Source: a virus
Reading direction: 5' to 3' (one strand)
Virus record (IMG/VR): IMGVR_UViG_3300033148_002107
Coordinates: 1 to 37,480 of that record
Length of the DNA: 37,480 bases
Within the stretch, counting starts at the first letter, position 1. The number at the start of each line of letters is the position of its first letter. Below are positions 4,674-31,194 of the stretch, in pieces. Under the pieces are notes generated by a model. It saw nothing but the letters and a program-made list of their open reading frames with translations, was not told the DNA's origin and searched no databases. The position numbers were made by a program, and so were the translations under genes.

Positions 4674-5042
4674 CTAGCGAGCCTGAGCGATTCGTCTTTG
4701 CCAAGCATCCATTGACTCACCAACTTTAGCGGGCATATTTAATCGTATTCCTTTTTGCTCGTTTGTTTCCTTAATCTCTTTTACAGGCAATTCCCAATCT
4801 TCATCCCAGCTTTCAGTATTAACAGAGAAGAACGTACTAGCCTGCATAACGAACGGAGTGTTTAACATACCCATTCCTTTGCAATAAGCGTAATAACGCA
4901 GCACACCCGCCTGTAAGTCGCTGTAAAGCACCTTATCCTTGAGTCTTGCGGTAAACGCTTTGAAGGCTAGTGGTTTTTTCCTGCCGCCTGCTCGCTTTGG
5001 ATAGATAGCCCATAGCTGTTCGAAATCTTCTGAATAATTCAT
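4674..5042 (-). CDS. Short DnaT/replication-O-like protein
   Basis: The 122-residue protein opens with FEQLWAIYPKRAGGRKKPLAFKAF, the W-x2-YP-K/R pattern seen at the DNA-binding end of phage replication proteins and DnaT-like proteins, followed by a helical segment (ARLKDKVLYSDLQAGVLRYY). These proteins help recruit the host helicase to an origin. No N-terminal winged helix is present, so it is shorter than lambda O-type proteins. It is the only replication gene I can find in this genome. Its ATG overlaps the rtcB stop (ATGA). Confidence 0.65.
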   Translation of the reverse strand: MNYSEDFEQLWAIYPKRAGGRKKPLAFKAFTARLKDKVLYSDLQAGVLRYYAYCKGMGMLNTPFVMQASTFFSVNTESWDEDWELPVKEIKETNEQKGIRLNMPAKVGESMDAWQRRIAQAR

Positions 5043-6250
5043 CCTTTTACGTTCACGACTTGACGCAGCGTGTGGACGATTTCCACTAAGTCAGATTGAT
5101 TATCCATAACCTTGTCAATATCTTTATAAGCAGAAGGGATCTCGTCAACTCTGGATTCATCTTTCGGGCATTCAATACCTTTTGTTTGCTCTGCTAAGTC
5201 TTCGGCTGTATAGAGCCTATGAGCCTGCTTGCGCCCTAGTTTACGTCCCGCGCCATGAGAGCAAGAACAAAACGACTCTTTATTTCCTTTCCCTCTAACG
5301 ATGAATGATTTTGCACCCATAGATCCGGGAATTATTCCCATATCGCCATCGCGAGCACGAATAGCACCTTTGCGGGTAACAATCACATTCGATCCAAAGT
5401 GGTTTTCTTTTGAAATATAATTATGATGGCAATTTATAGCGGTTGCTTCGGTTGAGAAGTTTCCATAATGCTTGTGCATTACCTTTAAAACAGCCTCCAT
5501 CATTGCTTTCCTGTTCTCTTCTGCGAAATCTTGCGCCCACTCAACAGCGTTGCAATAATCATCGTATATTTCCGTGTATTCAACCAAGTAAGACAAATCC
5601 TTATCTGGCAAATAAGGCGTTATGTGGTAGCGCTCCATTTCTTCCTTGGCTTTCTGGATGAAGTAACTACCAATTTTATTTCCCGCCCCTCTAGATCCAG
5701 AATGAAGCATTACCCACACAGAATCGTTTTCATCCAAGCAAACCTCGATAAAGTGATTGCCTGTACCTAGAGTCCCCAAATGATTTGCATTATTGAATCC
5801 CTTTGCTTTTGGGTGTTTTTTAATTATTTCATCATATCGCGCAGCTAGACCAGCCCAACGAACAGCTATATGAGCAGGTAGCTCGCTCCATCCTCCAACA
5901 TCATTAGCTCGCCCGTTGTCGGTTCGACCATGAGGCACAACTGTCTCAATGTCGTTTCTTAATGACCGCAGGTTGTCAGGTAGGTCGTTAGCCGTTAAAG
6001 ATGTTTGCACAGCCATCATTCCGCAACCCAAATCTACGCCAACAGCGGCAGGAATAATTGCGCCCTTTGATGCTATTACCGATCCGATTGTCGCGCCCAT
6101 TCCCCAATGAACATCTGGCATTGCCGCAATGTGCTTATGAATAAATGGCATTTGAGCCATGTTTTCAAGTTGGGTTATAGCGTTATCATCAATTTCATCT
6201 GTCCAAATTTTAACTGGAAATTTACCCATGATTACTTTTTTAACCGTCAT
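5039..6250 (-). CDS. rtcB: RNA ligase RtcB
   Basis: The 403-residue protein is a full-length RtcB. It has the metal-binding GVDLGCG with C76, NHFIE with H166, LHSGSRG with H183, the CHHNY pair (H275/H276) and SHGAGR with H332, the histidine that takes GMP. RtcB joins 2',3'-cyclic phosphate (3'-phosphate) ends to 5'-OH ends with GTP and Mn2+ and repairs cut tRNAs. No archease gene is seen. It is the first protein gene after the tRNA-Pro gene and its promoter, with GAGGGG before the ATG. In a phage the likely job is to reseal RNAs cut by host ribonucleases during infection. Confidence 0.95.
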   Translation of the reverse strand: MTVKKVIMGKFPVKIWTDEIDDNAITQLENMAQMPFIHKHIAAMPDVHWGMGATIGSVIASKGAIIPAAVGVDLGCGMMAVQTSLTANDLPDNLRSLRNDIETVVPHGRTDNGRANDVGGWSELPAHIAVRWAGLAARYDEIIKKHPKAKGFNNANHLGTLGTGNHFIEVCLDENDSVWVMLHSGSRGAGNKIGSYFIQKAKEEMERYHITPYLPDKDLSYLVEYTEIYDDYCNAVEWAQDFAEENRKAMMEAVLKVMHKHYGNFSTEATAINCHHNYISKENHFGSNVIVTRKGAIRARDGDMGIIPGSMGAKSFIVRGKGNKESFCSCSHGAGRKLGRKQAHRLYTAEDLAEQTKGIECPKDESRVDEIPSAYKDIDKVMDNQSDLVEIVHTLRQVVNVKG

Positions 6251-6274
6251 TATTTTCCCCTCGTTTTTTAAAAG

Positions 6275-6352
6275 TGGTCGGGATGGTAGGATTTGAACCT
6301 ACGACAACTCGCTTCCAAGGCGAGGACTCTGACCAAACTGAGCTACATCCCG
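6275..6352 (-). tRNA. tRNA-Pro (UGG anticodon)
   Basis: A complete cloverleaf can be folded: acceptor CGGGATG/CATCCCG, D-arm GCTC/GAGT, anticodon stem CTCGC/GCGAG with loop CTTGGAA (anticodon TGG), T-arm GTAGG/CCTAC with loop TTCAAAT, discriminator A and an encoded CCA. It reads proline CCA codons, which are common in the phage structural genes. It is transcribed leftward together with rtcB from the promoter at 6361..6389 and begins within a few bases of the predicted start point. Confidence 0.95.
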
Positions 6353-8326: not shown

Positions 8327-8712
8327 ACACAGCCGTTAGTCTAAATCGAACCGACACCGTATGGTGTACCTGCATTTGCTAGATTGGATTAACGCATTAA
8401 TAAGGCTTCTCCTCTAATCTTAGGGTTCGAGGTCACATAAACTCCTTTCAGTGGGAGCGAGCCTAAATATTCTGAAAGAGTGCATACTTCAAAGATGCAA
8501 ACCCTCTCACACCAATAAACTAATAGATGCGATTATTCGCAGGGTGCAAAAGAGAGGTTACTAATTCCGCTCACTAGCCTCAGCAACAGGCGTAACGGAC
8601 AGCTTGCTAGTGGATATGTCCTAGCCTCGCACCTAATCAGTGGAGGCGAACTTACTACTCCCCCTTAACCCAAAAGGTCTAGGTCTAAGCCACTTTAACG
8701 AGTGGCTTTTTA
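8327..8712 (+). ncRNA. Structured noncoding RNA, about 385 nt, unknown class
   Basis: This stretch has its own promoter and terminator and no convincing gene. It folds into many stems: a 12-pair stem with G-U pairs and one bulge (8335-8347 with 8382-8393) around hairpin ACACC-GTAT-GGTGT, CTTTCAG/CTGAAAG (8445, 8472), TGCAT/ATGCA, TGCGA-TTAT-TCGCA, CACTAGC/GCTAGTG (8572, 8606) and CCTAG/CTAGG. TCCG (8566) can pair with CGGA (8596) inside the CACTAGC loop, which would form a pseudoknot. The G-U pairs only work on this strand. It is not tmRNA, 6S or RNase P RNA by their known end or core sequences. The role is unknown. Confidence 0.65.
8688..8712 (+). terminator. Rho-independent terminator of the structured RNA
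   Basis: AGCCACT (8688-8694) pairs with AGTGGCT (8701-8707) around a six-base loop, followed by a run of T. It separates the RNA gene from the early operon. Confidence 0.85.
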
Positions 8713-16058: not shown

Positions 16059-16152
16059 TATAATATATTTGACTAGGGGGATACCCCGAAAAGCCGCCAC
16101 GCACAGCGGCCTGTCAATCCTAAATGTGTGATTACTAAAGGCGATTAGTAAC
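16059..16152 (+). promoter_or_regulatory. Structured leader of the HNH gene with hairpin over the ribosome site
   Basis: A TATAAT box (16059-16064, no clear -35) is followed by three hairpins: GGGG-GATA-CCCC (16076-16087), GCCGC/GCGGC (16093, 16106) and TTACTA/TAGTAA (16132, 16146) with AAGG in its loop just before the ATG. Translation of the HNH nuclease could be held in check by this leader. Confidence 0.45.
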
Positions 16153-16656
16153 ATGAAAGAATTAACGCAAGAAGAAGTAAGGTGTTATTTTAACTATGAC
16201 CCTCAAACTGGCGCGTTAGTAAATAAAAACCAAAGATGGTTTGGTTGCCCCGTCGAAATCGGTGCTGAAGCAGGCACTTTTTATCCCGATACGCGGTTTA
16301 TTAGGGTTATGGTTGATGGAAAATCATACTTAGCTCATAGGTTAATATGGCTTTATGTCTACGGCTCATGGCCTGAGTATGTTGATCACATAGATCAAGA
16401 CAGAACAAACAACAGAATAAATAATCTTAGAGATGTTACTCACGCAGTAAATACGAGAAACAAACCAAAATACAAAAGCAACAAGAGCGGCGTAACTGGT
16501 GTAAATCTATCTAGATCGGGAAAGTGGTTTGTTATTATAAATAAAGAGGTCGGAGTAAGAAAAAACATGGGAACATTTAGCGATAAGTTCGAAGCAATCT
16601 GTTGCCGTAAGTCAGCAGAAAACAAATACGGATACCATACAAATCATGGAAAATAA
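16153..16656 (+). CDS. HNH homing endonuclease with AP2-like DNA-binding end
   Basis: The 167-residue protein has YLAHRLIWLYVYGSWPEYVDHID (residues 59-81), N86-N87, NNLRDVT and the following asparagine-rich segment, the standard phage HNH_3 core. Residues 112-160 (SGVTGVNLSRSGKWFVII...) resemble the AP2-like DNA-binding domain common in such enzymes. It is probably a free-standing homing endonuclease. It lies at the border of early and late genes behind its own structured leader. Confidence 0.9.
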   Translation: MKELTQEEVRCYFNYDPQTGALVNKNQRWFGCPVEIGAEAGTFYPDTRFIRVMVDGKSYLAHRLIWLYVYGSWPEYVDHIDQDRTNNRINNLRDVTHAVNTRNKPKYKSNKSGVTGVNLSRSGKWFVIINKEVGVRKNMGTFSDKFEAICCRKSAENKYGYHTNHGK

Positions 16657-22509: not shown

Positions 22510-22547
22510 TATAATCATATAACATAATTAAACTGTCGTGAGGACAG
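22510..22547 (+). promoter_or_regulatory. TATAAT box plus CTGTC-GTGAG-GACAG hairpin before the portal gene
   Basis: TGT-TATAAT (22510-22515) gives an extended -10 box. The hairpin CTGTC/GACAG (22533-22547) follows, with the loop GTGAG. GAGG, the ribosome site, is in the loop and stem, and the ATG comes one base after the stem. The same module is found before the scaffold gene. Confidence 0.65.
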
Positions 22548-22548
22548 C

Positions 22549-24837
22549 ATGGCCAAGAAATTAGTAGATTCTGAAATAGTCGCAATTCTCAACTCTCAAA
22601 TTGACAACGCTCAAGGCTCAGACCTTTCTAGCGTAGAAACCCAACAAGCTAATGCTTTAGATTATTACTACGGCGATAAATCTATTATCAGCACAGAAGA
22701 CGGGGAATCATCCTTTATCAGCCGAGAAGTGCTAGAAACTGTTGAGCGTGAACTCGGGAGGCAATTAAAGGTATTTTGCTCTGGCGATAATACGGTTAAG
22801 TTTGACGCAACCGGCAAAGAAGATATTGAGCAAGCCCAGCAAGAAACTGACTTTATTAACTACGTGTTCAACAAAGAGAATAAAGGCTTTAAAATAATGC
22901 ATGATTGGATTAAGTCTGCATTACTAGAAAAAAATAGCTATGTTAAAGTCTGGATTGACGAAGAAGAAGAATTTGAAACAGAAACTTATTCAAACCTTAA
23001 CGACGCAGAATTAGAATATGTTATGTCTCAAGAGGGCGCAGAAGCCATCGAGCATGACGAGCAACAGATTTTAGATGAAGTATCACAACAACCTATCACC
23101 CTCCACGACATTAAAATTAGAACTAAATCCACAAAGAAGCAGGTTAAGGTTATTGTTGTTCCTAATGAGGAAATAGGCGTAGCAAGAGGCCATTACGAGC
23201 TAGACCTCAAAGACTGTCCTTTTGTGTACCATAAGCCAACATCTTTAACTGTTTCAGATTTAATTGAGGCGGGATTTAATAAAGACTTAGTAACAATGCT
23301 CCCCTCTCGTACCGATAATGAGAACACATTAACCAATGCTAGAGCCTCAGACGCAGATAACGATCGAGACTTTAACGAAGAAGCGGACGACTCAATGCGC
23401 GAGGTTGAGGTTTACGAGTGCTATATTCGTATGGATTATGACGGCGATGGTGTTGCAGAATTAAGAAAGATTACCATTTCAGGCAACGAAGTCTTAGAAA
23501 ACGAAGAGTGTGATTTTATTCCTATTGCTGTTATCTCTCCCATCCCTATGGCACATAAGCATATTGGTTTAAGTTATGCTGATTTAGTAATGCCATTACA
23601 GGACGTGAAGACCGTCTTAATGCAGCAAATGCTAACCAACCTCTATATGACAAACTCCCCAGAACGAGAGATTGTCGAGGGGCAGGTTAATATTGATGAC
23701 TTATTAACAAGCAAATCAGGCTCACTTAAACGAGTTAAACAGCCTAATATGATTAGAGATTTAGCCGTCCCATTCACTGCGGGGGCTTCATTGCCTATGC
23801 TGGATGTTATTGACGGCATGATTGAGGGCAGAGTAGGAAGAACACAGCCATTAGATCCTAATGTTCTCGCACAAAGCACCGCAGGCGCATTCGCTATGGG
23901 TGTCGAGCAAGACAATCAACTGTCCGAGAAAGTAGCTAGAACCTTCGCAGAGACAGGCGTGAAAGACATGTTTGGCATGATTCACGAGCTAGTCATTAAG
24001 CATTACGATACCCAGCAGACCATCGAGCTTCGGGGTGAATACGTGGAGATTAACCCGACAGAGTGGAAGAAGCGTTATAACATGAGCATTGTTGTTGGTT
24101 TAGGTACTGGCAACAAAGACAAAGAGATGGGGCAATTAATGCAGGTCATTACAGACCAAAAAGAACATCTATTAGCAGGTAGCCCGCTAGTCACCATGCA
24201 AAACTCTTTTAATGCTTATTCAGATTTAATCGATATATCAGGACTCAAGGGCGATTACTATACTGACCCATCAAGCCCAGAAGCACAGCAAGCAGCGCAA
24301 GCAGCAGCCCAGCAGCCACCACAACCCGACCCCAATATGATTATGATTGAAGCGAATAAGGCAATCGAAGATCAAAAAGCTCAACTTGTACAACAAAAAC
24401 AAGCAGCCGAAGCAGAATTTAAGAAAGCCGAGCACGCAATTAAACTCAGAGAGCTAGAGATTAAAGAAAGCGAAGCGCAAGCCAAGGCAGCAACAGATGC
24501 GGCTAATATAGAAGTTAAGCGATATGAAGCCGACCTAAGAAGTGAAACACAACTGGCGATAGAGCAAATGAAATCAGGCGCAACCATTCAAGATGCAATT
24601 AATGAAGTATTAAGCCCAATGCAACAACAGAATGATGAAACATTATCACATATGATTAATTCCATACTGGGTGAGATACAAACATCAGCAACAGCTAATG
24701 TTGAGCAGATGCAAGGCTATAACGACAATATGGCTCAACAAATCCAAACGATGGCCTCGCAAATGAATCGTCCGAAACGTGTGATTTACGCAGAAGATGG
24801 TGAAACACCTATTGGCGTAGAAACGGTAATGGAGTAA
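22549..24837 (+). CDS. Portal protein, P22-like size
   Basis: The 762-residue protein shows a podovirus-type portal: an N-terminal crown-proximal region, an internal DYDGDGVAELRKITISGNEVL strand block (about residues 301-321), then IPMAHKHIGLSYADLVMPLQDVKTVLMQQMLTN and RVGRTQPLDPNVLAQ (about 425-440). The last 230 residues are a long glutamine/alanine/glutamate-rich coiled coil (barrel-like). The length is close to the P22 portal. It forms the ring through which DNA enters and leaves. Confidence 0.9.
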   Translation: MAKKLVDSEIVAILNSQIDNAQGSDLSSVETQQANALDYYYGDKSIISTEDGESSFISREVLETVERELGRQLKVFCSGDNTVKFDATGKEDIEQAQQETDFINYVFNKENKGFKIMHDWIKSALLEKNSYVKVWIDEEEEFETETYSNLNDAELEYVMSQEGAEAIEHDEQQILDEVSQQPITLHDIKIRTKSTKKQVKVIVVPNEEIGVARGHYELDLKDCPFVYHKPTSLTVSDLIEAGFNKDLVTMLPSRTDNENTLTNARASDADNDRDFNEEADDSMREVEVYECYIRMDYDGDGVAELRKITISGNEVLENEECDFIPIAVISPIPMAHKHIGLSYADLVMPLQDVKTVLMQQMLTNLYMTNSPEREIVEGQVNIDDLLTSKSGSLKRVKQPNMIRDLAVPFTAGASLPMLDVIDGMIEGRVGRTQPLDPNVLAQSTAGAFAMGVEQDNQLSEKVARTFAETGVKDMFGMIHELVIKHYDTQQTIELRGEYVEINPTEWKKRYNMSIVVGLGTGNKDKEMGQLMQVITDQKEHLLAGSPLVTMQNSFNAYSDLIDISGLKGDYYTDPSSPEAQQAAQAAAQQPPQPDPNMIMIEANKAIEDQKAQLVQQKQAAEAEFKKAEHAIKLRELEIKESEAQAKAATDAANIEVKRYEADLRSETQLAIEQMKSGATIQDAINEVLSPMQQQNDETLSHMINSILGEIQTSATANVEQMQGYNDNMAQQIQTMASQMNRPKRVIYAEDGETPIGVETVME

Positions 24838-24840
24838 ACA

Positions 24841-25116
24841 ATGACCGAATTAGAAGAAAAAGAGTTTGAGTTTAATGCAAAACAACTATTATCCAACCCT
24901 GTATTCCTAATCCTCCTAGACGAGGTGAACAAGGGTATTAATCGAGACATGGATATAGTAAAGCCTGATGACTTAAAAGGTATGCAAGCCCTTGTGCTGC
25001 TAAGGCAAGCATCCACTAAAATTATCAGCTATATTGCGCTAGCAGCCGAAACAAGCAAAGTGACAGAATTTAACAAAAAGCGGAACATGGCCGAAAAATT
25101 GTTTAATCGCGGTTAA
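24841..25116 (+). CDS. Small head-gene-cluster protein, 91 residues
   Basis: A helical, charged protein between portal and scaffold. Proteins of this size in this place are common in related phages and have no assigned function, perhaps head assembly. No clear ribosome site, but the start is three bases after the portal stop. Confidence 0.62.
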   Translation: MTELEEKEFEFNAKQLLSNPVFLILLDEVNKGINRDMDIVKPDDLKGMQALVLLRQASTKIISYIALAAETSKVTEFNKKRNMAEKLFNRG

Positions 25117-25153
25117 AGCATTATAATTAACATAACGGAACGTCGTGAGACGT
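25099..25153 (+). promoter_or_regulatory. Promoter plus ACGTC-GTGA-GACGT hairpin before the scaffold gene
   Basis: TTGTTT (25099-25104) and TATAAT (25122-25127) are 17 bases apart. Downstream, ACGTC-GTGA-GACGT (25140-25153) forms a five-pair hairpin with the conserved GTGA loop. TTATAAT, then AACATAA, then the hairpin is the same order as before the portal gene. Confidence 0.65.
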
Positions 25154-25181
25154 ACTTAACCCAAAGATGGAGAATAGCCAA

Positions 25182-26267
25182 GTGGATAACACAGCTAGTA
25201 TTGATGTAGCAGCAGCAGGTGACATGATCGCAGATAAAATGGATGCGATGGAGTCTATTGAAGAAGTAAAAGAACCAGAAAAAATAGAGCCTTCTATTGA
25301 GGCTTCCGAAGAAACCGAGGAATCACAACCAGAAACGGATGATGCTGAGGAGAATAAAGAGGAATCAGAAGAGGATTCTAGCGAATCAAAAGAGCCTGAA
25401 ACCGAAGAACCAGAAGAAGAGTCGACAGAAACTTACGAATCTATCGCAGATTTAGCCGAAGCCACAGGCATGGAAATTAAAGACTTCCTTGATACTGTTA
25501 AGCAGAAGGTAAAGATCAACGGCGAAGAAATGGAAGTTAGCCTAAGCGATTTAACCTCTGGCTATCAGATGGAGCAGGACTATAGACGTAAAACAACCGA
25601 GCTAGGCGAACAGCGTAGAGGTTTTGAAACAGAAAAAGAGCAAGCCGTATCGCAAATCCAGAGTAAATTCCAAGAAGCTGAGGCATTATCAGCCACGCTT
25701 GAAAAACAACTTATGGGTGAGTATAACGGCGTAGATTGGAATCAGCTTGAATTGCAAGACCGTGAAGAATGGTTAGTTCAACGTCAAAAATACGGCGAAC
25801 GCGCACAACAGCTTGAAACCACTAAGACTCAAATTCAATCAGAGCTACAGCAACGCAACGAACAATTACAGGCAAAACAGCAAGAGGAATTCCAAAGCCA
25901 TCTCGTACAAGAGAATGAGAAATTACTGCAAGCTATTCCCGCATGGTCAGATGACAATGTGAGAAGCGAAGAAGTAGCAGCAATGACGGGTTATCTTAAA
26001 GAGTACGGTTTTAGTGATGAAGAGGCTAACCAGATTTCAGACCACAGAATTATGCGGCTTATCAATGACGCTTATAAAGGCGCAAATAAGAAGCAAAAGA
26101 TCGACGTGGTTAAAAAGAAGGTTAAGACTTTACCGAAAATTGTTAAGCCTAGCGCCAAAACAAACAAACAAGCAGCCAAGAAGCGAGCAGGTAGCGAATC
26201 TTGGAATAAATATAAACAATCTGGCTCGATGGACGACTTAACAGCCCATTTAGCGAGCAAACTTTAA
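25182..26267 (+). CDS. Scaffold-like head assembly protein
   Basis: The protein (361 residues from the GTG at 25182; 366 from the ATG at 25167) has a long acidic start (residues 20-90, rich in E, S and D), a helical middle with a glutamine-rich coiled coil and a basic C-terminal part (KKVKTLPKIVKPSAKTNKQ), the usual build of podovirus scaffold proteins. It lies directly before the capsid gene. GGAG is nine bases before the GTG, while the ATG at 25167 has none near, so the GTG is preferred. Scaffold is removed after the shell is built. Confidence 0.85.
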   Translation: MDNTASIDVAAAGDMIADKMDAMESIEEVKEPEKIEPSIEASEETEESQPETDDAEENKEESEEDSSESKEPETEEPEEESTETYESIADLAEATGMEIKDFLDTVKQKVKINGEEMEVSLSDLTSGYQMEQDYRRKTTELGEQRRGFETEKEQAVSQIQSKFQEAEALSATLEKQLMGEYNGVDWNQLELQDREEWLVQRQKYGERAQQLETTKTQIQSELQQRNEQLQAKQQEEFQSHLVQENEKLLQAIPAWSDDNVRSEEVAAMTGYLKEYGFSDEEANQISDHRIMRLINDAYKGANKKQKIDVVKKKVKTLPKIVKPSAKTNKQAAKKRAGSESWNKYKQSGSMDDLTAHLASKL

Positions 26268-26281
26268 CGTCGTGATGACGT
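26267..26281 (+). promoter_or_regulatory. ACGTC-GTGAT-GACGT hairpin before the capsid gene
   Basis: ACGTC (26267-26271) pairs with GACGT (26277-26281) around the loop GTGAT. It begins in the scaffold stop codon and is followed by AAGGAA and the capsid ATG at 26294. No TATAAT box is near here, so the hairpin works in RNA of an upstream promoter. Confidence 0.7.
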
Positions 26282-26293
26282 AAGGAAAATAAA

Positions 26294-27256
26294 ATGACAC
26301 AACCTACAGGTACTTTTAGCTCATACGACGCAGTTGGTAACAGAGAAGATTTAATCGATAACATCTTTGATGTATCTCCTGTTGAAACCCCAGCGCTTTC
26401 AGCAATGAAAAAGAAGAAAGCATCTAACCGTATTCATGAATGGCAAATTGACGTACTCGCAGCCGCAGCAGCTAATGCCGCAGTTGAGGGCGACGATCAA
26501 TCTGGCACAGCCCCAGCAGCAACAACGCGCCTAAACAACTATACACAGATTTTAACTAAGTCGGTTATCGTTACAGGCACACAAGAAAGCATCAACAGCG
26601 CAGGCCGTAGCTCAGAAGTGGGTTATCAGTCAGGTCGGCGTATGCAAGAGCTTAAGAAAGATATGGAGTTTGCCATGCTGGATAACGGTATCGCAGCCGG
26701 TATCGGTAATCCAAAAATAACAGGTAATGATACTACAGCTCGCGAAATGGCATCTCTAAACACTTATATGACATCTAACGTGTCGTTAGGTACGAATGGC
26801 GTGGTTTCTACGGGTGACGGCTCAGACGTTATGACAGACGGCACAAACCGAGCATTGACAGCGGTATTGCTCGATGCTGTATTGACGGACTGCTTCACTA
26901 ACGGCGGCGACCCTAAGATGCTTTTAGTGTCTCCAACTAACAAAGGCGTGGTATCTGACTTCACAACTACAGGTGCAACTCGCTATGTAACTACAGACGA
27001 TAAGAGTTTAACCACTTCTATTGATGTATATGTTGGTGACTTCCACACATTACAGGTTACACCTTGCCGTCAATTACAAGGCGAAAATGTGTATGCTCTA
27101 GATCCAGAATACTTAGCGATTGCCGAGTTACGCGGAATGGAAATGAAAGACCTAGCTAAAACAGGCGATTCAATCCAGAAGCAAATCACATGGGAAGCGA
27201 CATTAGAAGTTTGTAATGAAGCGGCACATGGTCTGATTGCAGATACTCAAGGGTAA
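26294..27256 (+). CDS. Major capsid protein, SU10 (DUF5309) type
   Basis: The 320-residue protein starts with SSYDAVGNREDLIDNIFDVSPVETPALSAMKKKKASN, the hallmark of the SU10/DUF5309 capsid family, and has ILTKSVIVTGTQESINSAGR, a long spine helix with MQELKKDMEFAMLDN and the C-terminal ALDPEYLAIAELRGMEMKDLAKTGDSIQKQITWEATLEVCNEAAHG. It forms the icosahedral shell with an HK97-like fold. A hairpin precedes its AAGGAA ribosome site and a terminator follows its stop. Confidence 0.93.
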   Translation: MTQPTGTFSSYDAVGNREDLIDNIFDVSPVETPALSAMKKKKASNRIHEWQIDVLAAAAANAAVEGDDQSGTAPAATTRLNNYTQILTKSVIVTGTQESINSAGRSSEVGYQSGRRMQELKKDMEFAMLDNGIAAGIGNPKITGNDTTAREMASLNTYMTSNVSLGTNGVVSTGDGSDVMTDGTNRALTAVLLDAVLTDCFTNGGDPKMLLVSPTNKGVVSDFTTTGATRYVTTDDKSLTTSIDVYVGDFHTLQVTPCRQLQGENVYALDPEYLAIAELRGMEMKDLAKTGDSIQKQITWEATLEVCNEAAHGLIADTQG

Positions 27257-27264
27257 ATAATTTA

Positions 27265-27289
27265 GGGAGGGTAAAACCTCCCTTTTCTT
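27265..27289 (+). terminator. Rho-independent terminator after the capsid gene
   Basis: GGGAGG (27265-27270) pairs with CCTCCC (27277-27282) around GTAAAA, followed by TTTTCTT. It would reduce transcription past the highly expressed capsid gene. Confidence 0.85.
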
Positions 27290-27307
27290 AACCAGAAAGG
27301 AAATATT

Positions 27308-27553
27308 ATGCCAAGTCAAAAGACAGCAGAAAAACCACAGAAAGCAGCCGAGCCATTAATAGAAGTCATTGCCCTTAGAAAATTCGCAGTTGATTATTCA
27401 AAGGAAGAATTAAAAGCTATGCAGAACGGCGACAAAGAAAACCGCTCTTATGAAGGGCTTACCAAAATGATTGAAGTCGGAAAAAGCGCGGAAGTATCAA
27501 AAGAATCCGCTGAAAAATTACAAGATGCAGGCGCTATTAAAATAGTTCTGTAG
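27308..27553 (+). CDS. Small head-cluster protein, 81 residues
   Basis: The protein has a lysine/alanine-rich start and an EVIALRKFAVDY...DAGAIKIVL part, similar to small proteins that follow capsid genes in many phages. Its role is not known. AGAAAGGAAA lies before the ATG, just after the terminator. Confidence 0.65.
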   Translation: MPSQKTAEKPQKAAEPLIEVIALRKFAVDYSKEELKAMQNGDKENRSYEGLTKMIEVGKSAEVSKESAEKLQDAGAIKIVL

Positions 27554-27562
27554 GAGGTTAGA

Positions 27563-27913
27563 ATGAGAGGAAAGTCACACACATACACAATAATCCCGTC
27601 TGCTGCGAGAACAGCATCAGAGGCGTTTGATTTAAACGGGCTGGCTGGCGAATGGGACGAGATTGTCGGATATTTGGATGTAACCGCAAAATCAGGCACA
27701 ACCCCAACGCTTGATATTGACTATGAAACAACGGTTGATGGGTCGGTTTATTTTAATAACGTGTCATTTACTCAGGCCACAACCGCAACAACGGAAAAGA
27801 AAACGTTTGTCATTCCTTTTGGTATAGATGGGCGACTCAACACTGTTATAGGTGGGTCTGATACCCCAACATTTACTTATAGCTTAACGCTCGAGTGTAA
27901 GCGCAGTGAATGA
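27563..27913 (+). CDS. Beta-sandwich virion protein, head-decoration-like
   Basis: The 116-residue protein is almost all strands and small polar residues (TIIPSAARTASEAFDLNGLAG, TPTLDIDYETTVDG, FTYSLTLECKR). Small beta proteins here often decorate or close the head. I do not recognise the family. TAGGAGGT stands before the ATG. Confidence 0.65.
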   Translation: MRGKSHTYTIIPSAARTASEAFDLNGLAGEWDEIVGYLDVTAKSGTTPTLDIDYETTVDGSVYFNNVSFTQATTATTEKKTFVIPFGIDGRLNTVIGGSDTPTFTYSLTLECKRSE

Positions 27914-28214
27914 TATAGAAACAACCCACTATTTTGATGCGAAAGAAAATAGGGATGTTTTCGAGCGCGTACAAGATTGTGAGCCTGTTCTTTTAGAAGC
28001 TAAACAGCACAGAGACAGAACAGATGGGCGTGGCGACACCTCGCTTGGTTATTTTGTTGGGACAATCCCTGGGATTATTGTGGAGCAATATCTAAAAACA
28101 GCGGGCGTAACATACCGCGAGTTTATGATCGATAGAACGCACATCCATCGAATTATGAATAATCCAGACTATAAAAAGTTTAGAGTGTTTGAAGGCAATA
28201 TAGGAAAAGGCTAA
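27906..28214 (+). CDS. Hypothetical structural-cluster protein, 102 residues
   Basis: A soluble acidic/basic mixed protein with RTDGRGDTSLGYFVGTIPG and IDRTHIHRIMNNPDYKKFRVFEGNI. I have seen small proteins of this kind beside podovirus adaptor genes, without function. It starts with a GTG that overlaps the previous stop and ends directly before the adaptor ATG. Confidence 0.65.
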   Translation: MNDIETTHYFDAKENRDVFERVQDCEPVLLEAKQHRDRTDGRGDTSLGYFVGTIPGIIVEQYLKTAGVTYREFMIDRTHIHRIMNNPDYKKFRVFEGNIGKG

Positions 28215-28850
28215 ATGAATTACGGAGAGCTGAAAACAAGTATAGCTAATCATTTGCATCGAACAGATTTAACATCGATTATTCCTGATTTTGTCGTGTT
28301 TGCTGAGACAACGGTGGCGAACGATCCAACCCCTTCGGATATGGATGTGCTTTGCGGCATTCGCACAAGAGATCAAAATAATCGCTATACAGCCACAATA
28401 AACACTGAATACGTGGACACACCCACTAATATGCTAAGTATTCGTGACGCTCAAATTAACACGAATCCAAAAACTCCATTACGGTATTTAACACCACAAG
28501 ACTTAACCTTTAAATACCCAACAGAATTAACAGGAACACCAGAGCATTACACAATACATGGTGACGAGTTCCAATTTAAACCCGTACCTAGCGGCGATAT
28601 GACTTTAGAGCTTAGTTATGTTGAGCGATACCCCGCCCTAAGTGCCGACGAAGACACGAATTGGTTATTAACAAATCACCCTATGGCTTACGTGTACCCC
28701 GCGCTAGTGGCGGCGGCAAGTTACTTGGAAAACGATCCAATTAAGTGGGTAAAATTATACACATCAATCGCCAAAGGCATTAATGGCGCAAATGAAAAAG
28801 GGCAGCATCCTAACCGATTATCTGCAACAGTAAGCACAGCAACTCCGTGA
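28215..28850 (+). CDS. Tail adaptor, SU10-adaptor/P22 gp4-like
   Basis: The 211-residue protein fits the SU10-type adaptor family: YGELKTSIANHLHRTDL...IPDFVVFAETTVAND at the start, a strand-rich middle with YLTPQDLTFKYPTELTGTPEHYTIHGDEFQFKPVPSGD and LELSYVERYPALS, and a helical end with LVAAASYLENDPIKW. It joins the portal to the tail. It is directly upstream of the fibre-like and nozzle-like genes, as expected. Confidence 0.88.
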   Translation: MNYGELKTSIANHLHRTDLTSIIPDFVVFAETTVANDPTPSDMDVLCGIRTRDQNNRYTATINTEYVDTPTNMLSIRDAQINTNPKTPLRYLTPQDLTFKYPTELTGTPEHYTIHGDEFQFKPVPSGDMTLELSYVERYPALSADEDTNWLLTNHPMAYVYPALVAAASYLENDPIKWVKLYTSIAKGINGANEKGQHPNRLSATVSTATP

Positions 28851-28854
28851 GGAC
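28844..28854 (+). promoter_or_regulatory. Weak GTGA-loop hairpin before the fibre-like gene
   Basis: TCC-GTGA-GGA (28844-28853) is a degenerate form of the GTC-GTGA-GAC hairpin found before the portal, scaffold and capsid genes. Only three pairs form; the shared GTGAGGAC supplies the GAGG ribosome site. Confidence 0.4.
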
Positions 28855-28857
28855 GTT

Positions 28858-29637
28858 ATGACCGTAGAAAGCGTTACATATATTTCAGATTTGAATCAAA
28901 GCAACCCCGCAGGGACAGACCCTAAAAGCGAGGGCGACGACCATATTCGCAACATAAAAAAAGGCATAGATGGCTCTTTCCCTAATTTTGCTGGCATCGC
29001 TATGACCTCAACGGAGGCGGAATTAAATATTTTGGATGGATGCACAGCAACAACCGCAGAGTTAAATATAATCGACGGCGTAACCGCGACAACCGCAGAG
29101 CTAAATTATGTTGATGGCGTTACATCAGACATTCAAACCCAGCTAGACGCTAAAATGACGGGTTCTAGCAACTTGTCGGACGTTGATAACGCAAGCACAT
29201 CAAGAACAAATTTAGGGCTTGGGTCTTTATCGACTCTTTCTCAACTATCTTCACCAGATGAGCTGCCTGACTACACAGCAGGTGGGTTTTTGGTTCACTC
29301 AGTGGACACAGTTAGAACAGCGACCACCACAAGCCCTCAGAAAATTAAAGAAATAACCGTTGCTAAAGGGGGAACGCTAACCGTTAAATTCGACCTTGCC
29401 CATACTTCTGGTGGGCAGACGGCTTACGGGCAAATCTACGTGAACGGGTCGCCATCTGGCACTCTTCGATCTGTTGCTGGCACAGCTTACTCTACTTTTT
29501 CGGAGAGCATAGCGGTGTCCACTGGTGATTTGCTTCAGTTATACAGCTACACACCATCAACAACGGCCAACGTGAAAAACTTTAGAATTTATAAAGACGA
29601 TAATGAGCCATCAACAACTCATGACGCTAATTACTAA
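28858..29637 (+). CDS. Tail-fibre-like protein with AELN-DG repeats
   Basis: The 259-residue protein starts with a fibre N-terminus (DLNQSNPAGTDPKSEGDDHIRNIKKGI), has three repeats of the form TxAELNxxDGVTAT (residues 51-90), a short coiled-coil linker (QTQLDAKM) and a beta-rich C-terminal domain (about 140-259). Such repeats are common in fibres of many phages. It probably attaches to the tail through its N-terminus. Whether it binds the host or is a chaperoned tail part is not visible. Confidence 0.78.
   Translation: MTVESVTYISDLNQSNPAGTDPKSEGDDHIRNIKKGIDGSFPNFAGIAMTSTEAELNILDGCTATTAELNIIDGVTATTAELNYVDGVTSDIQTQLDAKMTGSSNLSDVDNASTSRTNLGLGSLSTLSQLSSPDELPDYTAGGFLVHSVDTVRTATTTSPQKIKEITVAKGGTLTVKFDLAHTSGGQTAYGQIYVNGSPSGTLRSVAGTAYSTFSESIAVSTGDLLQLYSYTPSTTANVKNFRIYKDDNEPSTTHDANY
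29011..29128 (+). repeat. Tandem in-frame repeats of the fibre gene
   Basis: Three imperfect repeats of about 39 bases encode A-T-T-A-E-L-N-x-x-D-G-V-T units. They vary at third positions, so they are old rather than newly copied. Confidence 0.75.
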
Positions 29638-31194
29638 ATGATTAAATCCTTTAGAGATTTAGGTTCTATTGGTGTAATTTATGACACCGACCCCCGCAAT
29701 ATTCCCGATAATGCGTGGACATCTATTCGTAATGTGCGGTTTATAGATAACGCTGTTGAAAAATCAAAAGGGGAATCTAGTGTTTATACTACCCCCGCTA
29801 TCGATCCCCAGTGGCTTTTGCCTGTTCAAACCGACTCTAGTTATTACTGGGTCTACCCGTCCCTGACAAAATGCTATGTCACGGACGGAACAACAAACAC
29901 CAATATCACGCGCCAAACATCAAGCGTCGATGTTGATTATTCTGCAACAGCAGATATAGGATGGAATGGAGGCGCAATCGGTGGAGTCCCTATTATTAAT
30001 AATGGTGTTGACGATCCGCAAATGTGGACACCAATAGGAACATCAACAAAACTTCAATCTTTAACATGGTCAAGCGGCACAACATGGTCAAGCGAAAGCA
30101 AAGTGGCTAGAGTTATAAGGCCGTTTAAGCAGTTTCTTGTTGCTTTAGATATTACATCTGGCGGGACAAGAAGCCGTCAAGAGATCAGGTGGTCGCACCC
30201 AGCAGACAGCGGAACAGTGCCGAGCACATGGGATGAAACAGACACAACAAAAGATGCGGGGCAACATTTTTTAGATGAAAACGGCGGATCGCTAATTGAT
30301 TGCCTGCCTTTAGGTGATACAAATATTATTTATAAAGACTCTCAGACTATCGGGATGCAGCATATCGGCGGCCAATATGTTTTTAGGTTTTATAATATCT
30401 TTGAGGAGTCCGGCCTTTTAACTAGACGCTGTGCAAAACCTTTTTACGGAAAACACTTTTGCGTAACAAATGGCGACGTTATAACGCATGACGGAAACTC
30501 TATCGACCCAGTTTTTAATCATAAAACTAGGGATTGGCTATTTGGCGCAATAGACTCCGATAACTACGAACGAACATTTGTTAGCCCGAATTACCAAAAA
30601 GACGAAATGTGGGTTTGCTTCCCAGAAAGCGGCGCAGACTTCGCCACTCTTGCGCTTGTTTGGAATTATCGAGACAACACAACAACCGTAAGAGAATTGC
30701 CCACCGTTAAGCATATTGGCTACGGGTTAGTCGATCCAGCAGGGGCGGCGAATTGGGATGCAGACAGCGTGGCATGGGATTTAGATACCGAGCAATGGGG
30801 TGAAACAGATTATTCCCCGACCGTTATCAAGAATTTATTTGCTGGGTCAACAAAATTCTATCTTGGCGACGACACCGAGCAATCAGACGGCACGAATATC
30901 ACAGCAACAGCAGAAAGGGTGGGGTTAGACTTTGATGAGCCTAACCTTGTCAAATACGTAAAACGAATATGGCCTAGAATAGAAACAACAGGCGACATTA
31001 CGTTTTCCGTAGGACAGCAGATGGAAAGATCCGACGCAATCACTTGGACAGATTATACGTTTTCAAGCGGAGACTCGAAGATTGATTGTGATGTTTCAGG
31101 CCGGTTTATCGCTATAAAAATATCATCAAATACTGATGTCTCATGGTCTCTAAAAGAATACGACGTTGACTATGAGTTAAGGGGTCAATTTTGA
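29638..31194 (+). CDS. Tail nozzle-like protein (P22 gp10-type role)
   Basis: The 518-residue protein begins with SFRDLGSIGVIYDTDPRNIPDNAWTSIRNVRF, typical of the podovirus stabiliser or nozzle proteins with a beta-propeller-like body. It has VIRPFKQFLVALDI, RQEIRWSHPAD, WVCFPESG and a final beta domain. It forms part of the tube under the adaptor and keeps packaged DNA from leaking. It follows the fibre-like gene with no gap, and the next gene overlaps its end. Confidence 0.8.
   Translation: MIKSFRDLGSIGVIYDTDPRNIPDNAWTSIRNVRFIDNAVEKSKGESSVYTTPAIDPQWLLPVQTDSSYYWVYPSLTKCYVTDGTTNTNITRQTSSVDVDYSATADIGWNGGAIGGVPIINNGVDDPQMWTPIGTSTKLQSLTWSSGTTWSSESKVARVIRPFKQFLVALDITSGGTRSRQEIRWSHPADSGTVPSTWDETDTTKDAGQHFLDENGGSLIDCLPLGDTNIIYKDSQTIGMQHIGGQYVFRFYNIFEESGLLTRRCAKPFYGKHFCVTNGDVITHDGNSIDPVFNHKTRDWLFGAIDSDNYERTFVSPNYQKDEMWVCFPESGADFATLALVWNYRDNTTTVRELPTVKHIGYGLVDPAGAANWDADSVAWDLDTEQWGETDYSPTVIKNLFAGSTKFYLGDDTEQSDGTNITATAERVGLDFDEPNLVKYVKRIWPRIETTGDITFSVGQQMERSDAITWTDYTFSSGDSKIDCDVSGRFIAIKISSNTDVSWSLKEYDVDYELRGQF

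Follow-up and report, generated by a model that had tools for sequence, protein, structure and literature searches.

A GNGA-loop hairpin with a covarying stem beside the start sites of virion genes in unrelated tailed phages and in single-stranded RNA phages

Several described RNA hairpins resemble, each in its own way, the element reported here. The operator of the leviviruses MS2 and Qbeta is a short hairpin at the ribosome-binding site (RBS) of a phage gene, where a protein-RNA contact controls translation; the lambda-type boxB of nut sites combines a 5-bp stem with a GNRA-like tetra- or pentaloop in about 15 nucleotides (nt); and the autogenous operators of T4 genes 43 and 32 are hairpins 5' of the RBS with a specific loop, which is UAAC in the case of gene 43 (PMC3014915). 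The ribosomal-protein operators (uS2/rpsB) offer a further likeness in that a host ribosomal protein could, by analogy, read an rRNA-like hairpin at the RBS. The element studied here is a hairpin in the virus record IMGVR_UViG_3300033148_002107 of IMG/VR, analyzed over 37,480 bases (hereafter, the window), in which a first-pass annotation had noticed copies before the portal, scaffold and capsid genes and had suggested a shared RNA signal of a form not known to have been described. No Rfam 15 family aligned with any of the hairpins, whether the whole window was searched at values up to E 1 or the portal site at values up to E 5, and our literature search, which did not extend to the 2023 catalogue of viral structured RNAs by Fremin and colleagues, returned no description of the hairpin. 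One structured-RNA catalogue lists 508 predicted structures within 25 bp of genes (PMC8040213), and no entry of the hairpin's form was found in the portions read of such catalogues of phages and microbiomes. The claim of novelty thus stands relative to Rfam 15 and the literature searched.

The pairing of the stem, the constancy of the loop, the position beside start sites, and the recurrence in unrelated tailed and single-stranded RNA (ssRNA) phages are established by the comparisons below. The element has a stem of 4-5 bp with strict Watson-Crick pairing of the form Y-G-Y-Y / R-R-C-R, the third pair being a constant G-C, and a GNGA loop, mostly GUGA or GAGA and often with one extra U. Three registers relative to the start codon can be distinguished. 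In register A, which has the most frequent spacing, the stem is followed immediately by AAGGA, the start codon lies 11-14 nt past the stem, and the trinucleotide CTA precedes the stem (C in 72, T in 95, and A in 109 of 115 sites). In register B, the hairpin lies ~25 nt upstream and the Shine-Dalgarno (SD) sequence sits in a TCC...GGA pairing, whereas in register C the SD occupies the loop and the 3' strand, with the start codon 1-5 nt later. The window sites before the capsid, scaffold and portal genes represent registers A, B and C, respectively; register C was also found in record G005 near 30751 and, before the gene that follows the terminase, in contig L092 near 1785. The distance between the 4-bp core and the start codon varies little (mode 12-15 nt), and a two-pair extension, CU/AG over an A-A mismatch, has modest support. 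Among loci that had not been fetched by means of the hairpin, 26 of the 205 hairpins upstream of an SD carried a GNGA(N) loop, compared to about 3 expected.

Relatives were gathered by portal and capsid searches of IMG/VR, with capsid identity down to ~40%. The hairpin lies between the scaffold stop codon and the capsid SD, or before the scaffold gene, in L001, L009, L010, L013, L015, L019, L022, L023, L193, L197, L198, L200, L203 and others. Its common form in relatives is nYGYY-GUGA(U)-RRCRn', before scaffold, capsid or other virion genes, with stems that include ATGTC/GACAT, ACGTC/GACGT, CTGTC/GACAG, ACGCT/AGCGT, TCGCC/GGCGA and ATGCC/GGCAT. A covariance model built from 12 sites (R1) picked up little beyond the sites themselves, those used for training being matched by construction, and detected 1 to 7 sites in most whole records. 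In two contigs, the major head protein gene is seemingly interrupted by ~1-2 kb after its first codons in an intron-like manner (L023, 2900-4907; L059, 1390-2380), with the hairpin still before the first exon.

For the assessment of covariation, candidates were defined by a G[TA]GA loop, Y/R beside the loop, a G/C third pair, an SD and ATG downstream, and stop codons in all frames; sites by which contigs had been fetched were omitted, and 4-loop and 5-loop sites were analyzed separately because MAFFT had misplaced the fifth loop base. Counting from the loop, stem pairs 1, 2 and 4 were Watson-Crick in 23/23, 23/23 and 22/23 of the tetraloop sites and in 12/12 of the pentaloop sites at each position, with CG/TA swaps. 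That is, pairs 2 and 4, which the selection had left free, were Watson-Crick in 35/35 and 34/35 sites. The tetraloop alignment (A4) had 92% of its cells paired and 28 double changes, scoring 0.63 vs. 0.30 in shuffles; the pentaloop alignment (A5), which takes in the portal site of the window and four ssRNA phage sites added by hand, had 98.8% paired and 17 double changes, scoring 0.47 vs. 0.18. Neither score was reached by any of 500 shuffles, and slid controls were far lower. In a scan of the whole of IMG/VR using a Y/R pattern that leaves the pairing free, the outer pair of 5-loop hairpins before start codons was CG in 21 cases, TA in 13, CA in 1 and TG in 0, wobble or broken combinations falling mostly among matches not before start codons (a wider count gave the same contrast). 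G-U pairs before genes were absent from tetraloop stems and rare in pentaloop stems, and single sequences, folded individually, adopt the drawn hairpin. Accordingly, the earlier description of stem bases that change yet stay paired around a constant loop is strongly supported, and the conservation and covariation in related phages on which it had staked its proposal are both present.

The element is not confined to these relatives. Pattern scans of the whole of IMG/VR returned 25, 50 and 71 contigs and, with duplicates removed, most matches lay a few nt 5' of a start codon. A compilation of 156 sites with a downstream open reading frame (ORF; gene calls followed a simple longest-ORF rule) comprised 64 downstream protein families, some probably by chance. 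Some of the sites had been retrieved by searching for the hairpin itself, so the principal counts were taken from sets free of such selection. The downstream major head proteins belong to eight PHROG families (1328, 10, 283, 334, 1357, 29, 9953, 247), which are non-homologous, and the carriers are unrelated tailed phages. Other downstream genes encode major tail proteins (584, 158, 1407), tail sheath (23), portal (1216), scaffold and protease families. The signal is wider than the head genes for which it was first proposed, as it also precedes tail sheath, major tail protein and fibre-like genes, and it is far from restricted to the phage of the window. BLAST with short hairpin queries against 50,697 phage records gave no tailed isolate with a convincing copy. 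Two arrangements deserve mention: tandem hairpins, CGCC-GTGA-GGCG or CGCT-GTGA-AGCG followed by CGTC-GTGAT-GACG, precede a 91-aa exported-looking protein beside an Hsp20-like gene in G009, G012, G013 and G017 (L176, L179, L186, L187), and L085 and L229 carry several GAGA-, GCGA- or GTGA-loop copies per contig before head and other genes (in L229 at 9981, 10971 and 14306). The IMG/VR identifiers of the latter two lack the 33000 metagenome prefix, and they may be isolate genomes and, as such, candidate laboratory models.

The ssRNA phages have no DNA stage and only three or four genes, and their genome is the mRNA. One pattern match, L183, is such a phage (maturation protein PF03863, replicase PF03431) and has TTA-CCGTC-GTGAT-GACGG-AAGGAG before its coat gene; another genome found via the hairpin, SRR7976301_9 (BK013723), has the register-B form at the same place. 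In addition to these two carriers, 3 of 13 genomes collected by homology of the RNA-dependent RNA polymerase (RdRp) have the hairpin before the coat gene: BK013744 (CTA-CCGTC-GAGAC-GACGG), L427 (TTA-CTGTC-GAGAT-GACAG) and BK014139 (ACGTT-GTGA-AACGT). Across the 13 genomes, 3 pre-coat sites fall in 780 nt vs. 3 in 48 kb elsewhere (p = 8e-5). Two further ssRNA records retrieved with short BLAST queries have the hairpin within the replicase gene rather than before the coat gene and appear chance-like, and no hairpin was seen before the replicase in the ssRNA carriers. Its occurrence in phages of this kind speaks against a role in transcription, against cleavage of the RNA and against a phage-encoded partner common to the carriers.

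Within the window, the head cluster runs terminase, portal, a 91-aa ORF, scaffold and major head protein, and the sequence together with the PHROG matches bears out each position given by the first-pass annotation, including a weak site before a fibre-like gene (Table 1). Hairpin 3 begins on the final base of the scaffold stop codon, and its counterpart precedes the capsid gene in many relatives. The second module after hairpin 2 parallels the TCC...GGA of most register-B sites in relatives and in the ssRNA phage SRR7976301_9; GTG 25182, not ATG 25167, is probably the scaffold start because the latter falls within the GATGGAG SD motif, and spacing in relatives agrees. The weak site is a degenerate copy of the full hairpin, CTGTC-GTGAT-GACAG, that relatives L013 and L197 (record G003) have before the homologue of the same gene.

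Table 1. Features of the head-gene region of the window that bear on the hairpin.
Feature	Position	Strand	Description
Hairpin 1	22533..22547	+	CTGTC-GTGAG-GACAG, before portal; register C; SD-like GAGGA spans loop and 3' strand; ATG 22549 after 1 nt
Portal gene	22549..24837	+	phrog_1216, E 8.6e-130
Hairpin 2	25140..25153	+	ACGTC-GTGA-GACGT, before scaffold; register B; 25.3 bits with R1 (site belongs to the R1 training set)
Second module of register B	25160..25172	+	CCC..GATGGAG; SD GGAG, upstream CC able to pair with GG
Scaffold gene	25182..26267	+	phrog_3927; probable start GTG 25182
Hairpin 3	26267..26281	+	ACGTC-GTGAT-GACGT, before major head protein; register A; abuts SD
Shine-Dalgarno AAGGA	26282..26286	+	ATG at 26294
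Major head protein gene	26294..27256	+	phrog_1328, E 5e-94
Weak site	28844..28853	+	TCC-GTGA-GGA; SD inside 3' strand
Tail/fibre-like gene, 3' of weak site	28858..29637	+	phrog_6465, E 1.6e-8

In the window, a GTGA loop closed by five Watson-Crick pairs occurs only in hairpins 1 to 3; the other GTGA-loop hairpins listed have fewer pairs or contain G-T pairs. The heptamer GTCGTGA occurs 5 times vs. 1.8 expected (reached in 3 of 100 shuffles), and the 15-mer with 3 mismatches allowed showed no significant excess inside the window. That is, the signal within the window alone is barely above chance and, because this excess is only modest, the case for the hairpin rests on the comparative evidence. 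The motifs TTATAAT and then AACATAA, described earlier as standing in the same order before the portal and scaffold hairpins, are present; their spacing differs (5 vs. 1 nt), they show no excess and they are not kept in relatives, which conserve CTA right before the stem instead, and we dropped them from the element. None of the three hairpins is listed as an intrinsic terminator on the + strand in a search for a GC-rich stem plus T run. A strong terminator-like hairpin with a T tail lies at 27264-27283, directly 3' of the major head protein gene. Elsewhere in the window, an int-alpA-like RNA was matched in a local search at 16069-16117 (+; 31.2 bits, gathering 35.8, E 1e-4), just 5' of an HNH endonuclease gene at 16153, and a DUF3800-IX RNA below threshold at 8335-8397 (+; 32 bits, gathering 36.8); an RtcB-type RNA ligase gene (5039-6352, -) adjoins a tRNA-Pro(TGG) gene.

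We favor the explanation that the hairpin is a cis-acting RNA element for translation initiation at virion genes, probably read by the host and more likely enhancing than repressing. A translation role is proposed because translating a virion gene is what ssRNA and tailed phages share at these sites, a host reader because, at BLAST sensitivity, no phage protein but terminase recurs widely among the carriers, and enhancement because the products are abundant. Under this hypothesis, the element at the edge of the SD would act on the mRNA by setting 30S initiation, its reader would be the 30S subunit or a host RNA-binding protein, and the net effect would be to raise or secure the synthesis of abundant proteins such as capsid, coat, tail tube, sheath and scaffold; the weak SD pairing in registers B and C would let the same factor act as a switch. 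Of the meanings offered at first, a start-site or translation element is the preferred one; a binding site for a phage protein is disfavored by that BLAST result and by the ssRNA carriers, and an RNA-processing site would cut the ssRNA genome.

Several observations weigh against this explanation. Many relatives, and most of the ssRNA phages, are without the element, which is thus not generally needed; it was likewise not seen in the stretches read of the related-capsid phages HTVC106P, Venkman, Cronobacter Ss1, phiM5 and PaP4, a Bradyrhizobium prophage and the Manatee Spring phages. In registers B and C the SD is partly sequestered, an arrangement compatible with both repression and activation. 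A scan of about 750 bacterial genomes for strict forms gave none in 369 genomes of the class of record G001 and, in 399 genomes of its phylum, only the phage contig of G001 itself (the two sets overlap slightly, and looser host sites are possible). With strict forms not in bacterial genes, a host factor would have to work differently there or have another main job.

Of the alternatives, a passive RNA insulator without a specific reader, which would keep the RBS free of upstream pairing or apart from the preceding gene, survives best, and we regard it as unlikely. A location after the preceding gene's stop codon and ahead of the SD suits such a role, GNRA-type loops are stable, and the ssRNA phage L430 (BK013371), which is without the element, has a different hairpin at the same place, CCAGC-TACGT-GCTGG, ~20-40 nt before the coat gene. 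However, the loops are concentrated on GNGA and not on the equally stable GAAA or UUCG, the third pair and the CTA flank are conserved, and register C has the SD inside the hairpin; the loop and stem together look too specific for a mere insulator.

Slightly less likely again is a phage-encoded RNA-binding regulator of late translation, either repressor or activator, represented by different or fast-evolving proteins in each phage. The sequence specificity of loop and stem and the partial enclosure of the SD noted above would fit a regulator of this kind, and the operator hairpins of the MS2 coat protein and of T4 gp43 (PMC3014915) offer an analogy. Against it, at BLAST sensitivity no protein family recurs widely among the element-bearing records except terminase (a remote homologue may have been missed), which makes a shared phage-encoded partner unlikely; moreover, the coding capacity of the ssRNA carriers is limited to a maturation protein, coat, replicase and perhaps a lysis protein. 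A stabilizer of 5' ends or a processing site that protects or generates late mRNAs is improbable: hairpins near 5' ends can protect mRNAs and TATAAT lies upstream of hairpins 1 and 2 and of the G006 site at 47860, but the region has no promoter excess, the stem falls short of the length that RNase III requires, and in ssRNA phages the site is internal and cutting would destroy the genome. A site at the DNA level (an inverted-repeat operator or promoter part) is very improbable, in spite of the near absence of G-U pairs in tetraloop stems, as in DNA palindromes, given that half sites change in pairs and not independently, the asymmetric loop is constant and of 4 or 5 bases, the element occupies one strand only relative to the gene, and RNA phages carry it.

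With regard to the host reader of the favored translation element, the segment TGTC-GTGA-GATG, which we take to be helix 36, occurs in 16S rRNA encoded by a genome related to G001; its 5' strand and loop are as in the phage hairpin, its 3' strand differs, and the R1 score was not significant (5.5 bits, E 9.6). Helices h35-h37 of 16S rRNA are contacted by uS2, and uS2 acts jointly with bS1 as a translational repressor of the mRNA that encodes it (PMC10931766). We consider the likeness a suggestive lead only. A bolder version, doubtful in our view, is that the hairpin is a general translation signal of two realms (ssRNA Leviviricetes and double-stranded DNA Caudoviricetes) that the host initiation machinery itself reads, possibly as a strengthened copy of the 16S UGUC-GUGA-GAUG engaging uS2/bS1 or the 30S subunit, which would give virion mRNAs the advantage in competing for ribosomes.

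If the element does act via host translation, it would represent convergent or exchanged use of one host handle that favors virion proteins. It could serve as a portable expression signal, and it offers a concrete test of the effect of structured RNA beside the SD on initiation. Further, the element marks virion genes and could help to find structural genes in unannotated phages.

Comparison with the known systems sets the element apart from each of them. A CsrA/RsmA site would have GGA in its loop, while the loop here is GNGA and the AAGGA of register A lies outside the stem. The uS2/rpsB operator differs in that the 3' strand of the 16S hairpin is unlike that of the phage hairpin. The T4 operators each serve one gene in one phage group and have a phage-encoded reader. 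Unlike boxB, the element lies directly before the starts of virion genes, with several copies per genome and no boxA upstream (only CTA is conserved), at late virion genes and ssRNA coat genes rather than in early leaders, and it is present in RNA phages, where antitermination would be meaningless. The MS2/Qbeta operator sits at the replicase start with a bulged A and an ANYA loop, whereas the element precedes the coat gene with a GNGA loop and no bulged A, and it is found also in DNA phages without such a coat protein. It is, to our knowledge, the only RNA control element common to RNA phages and tailed DNA phages.

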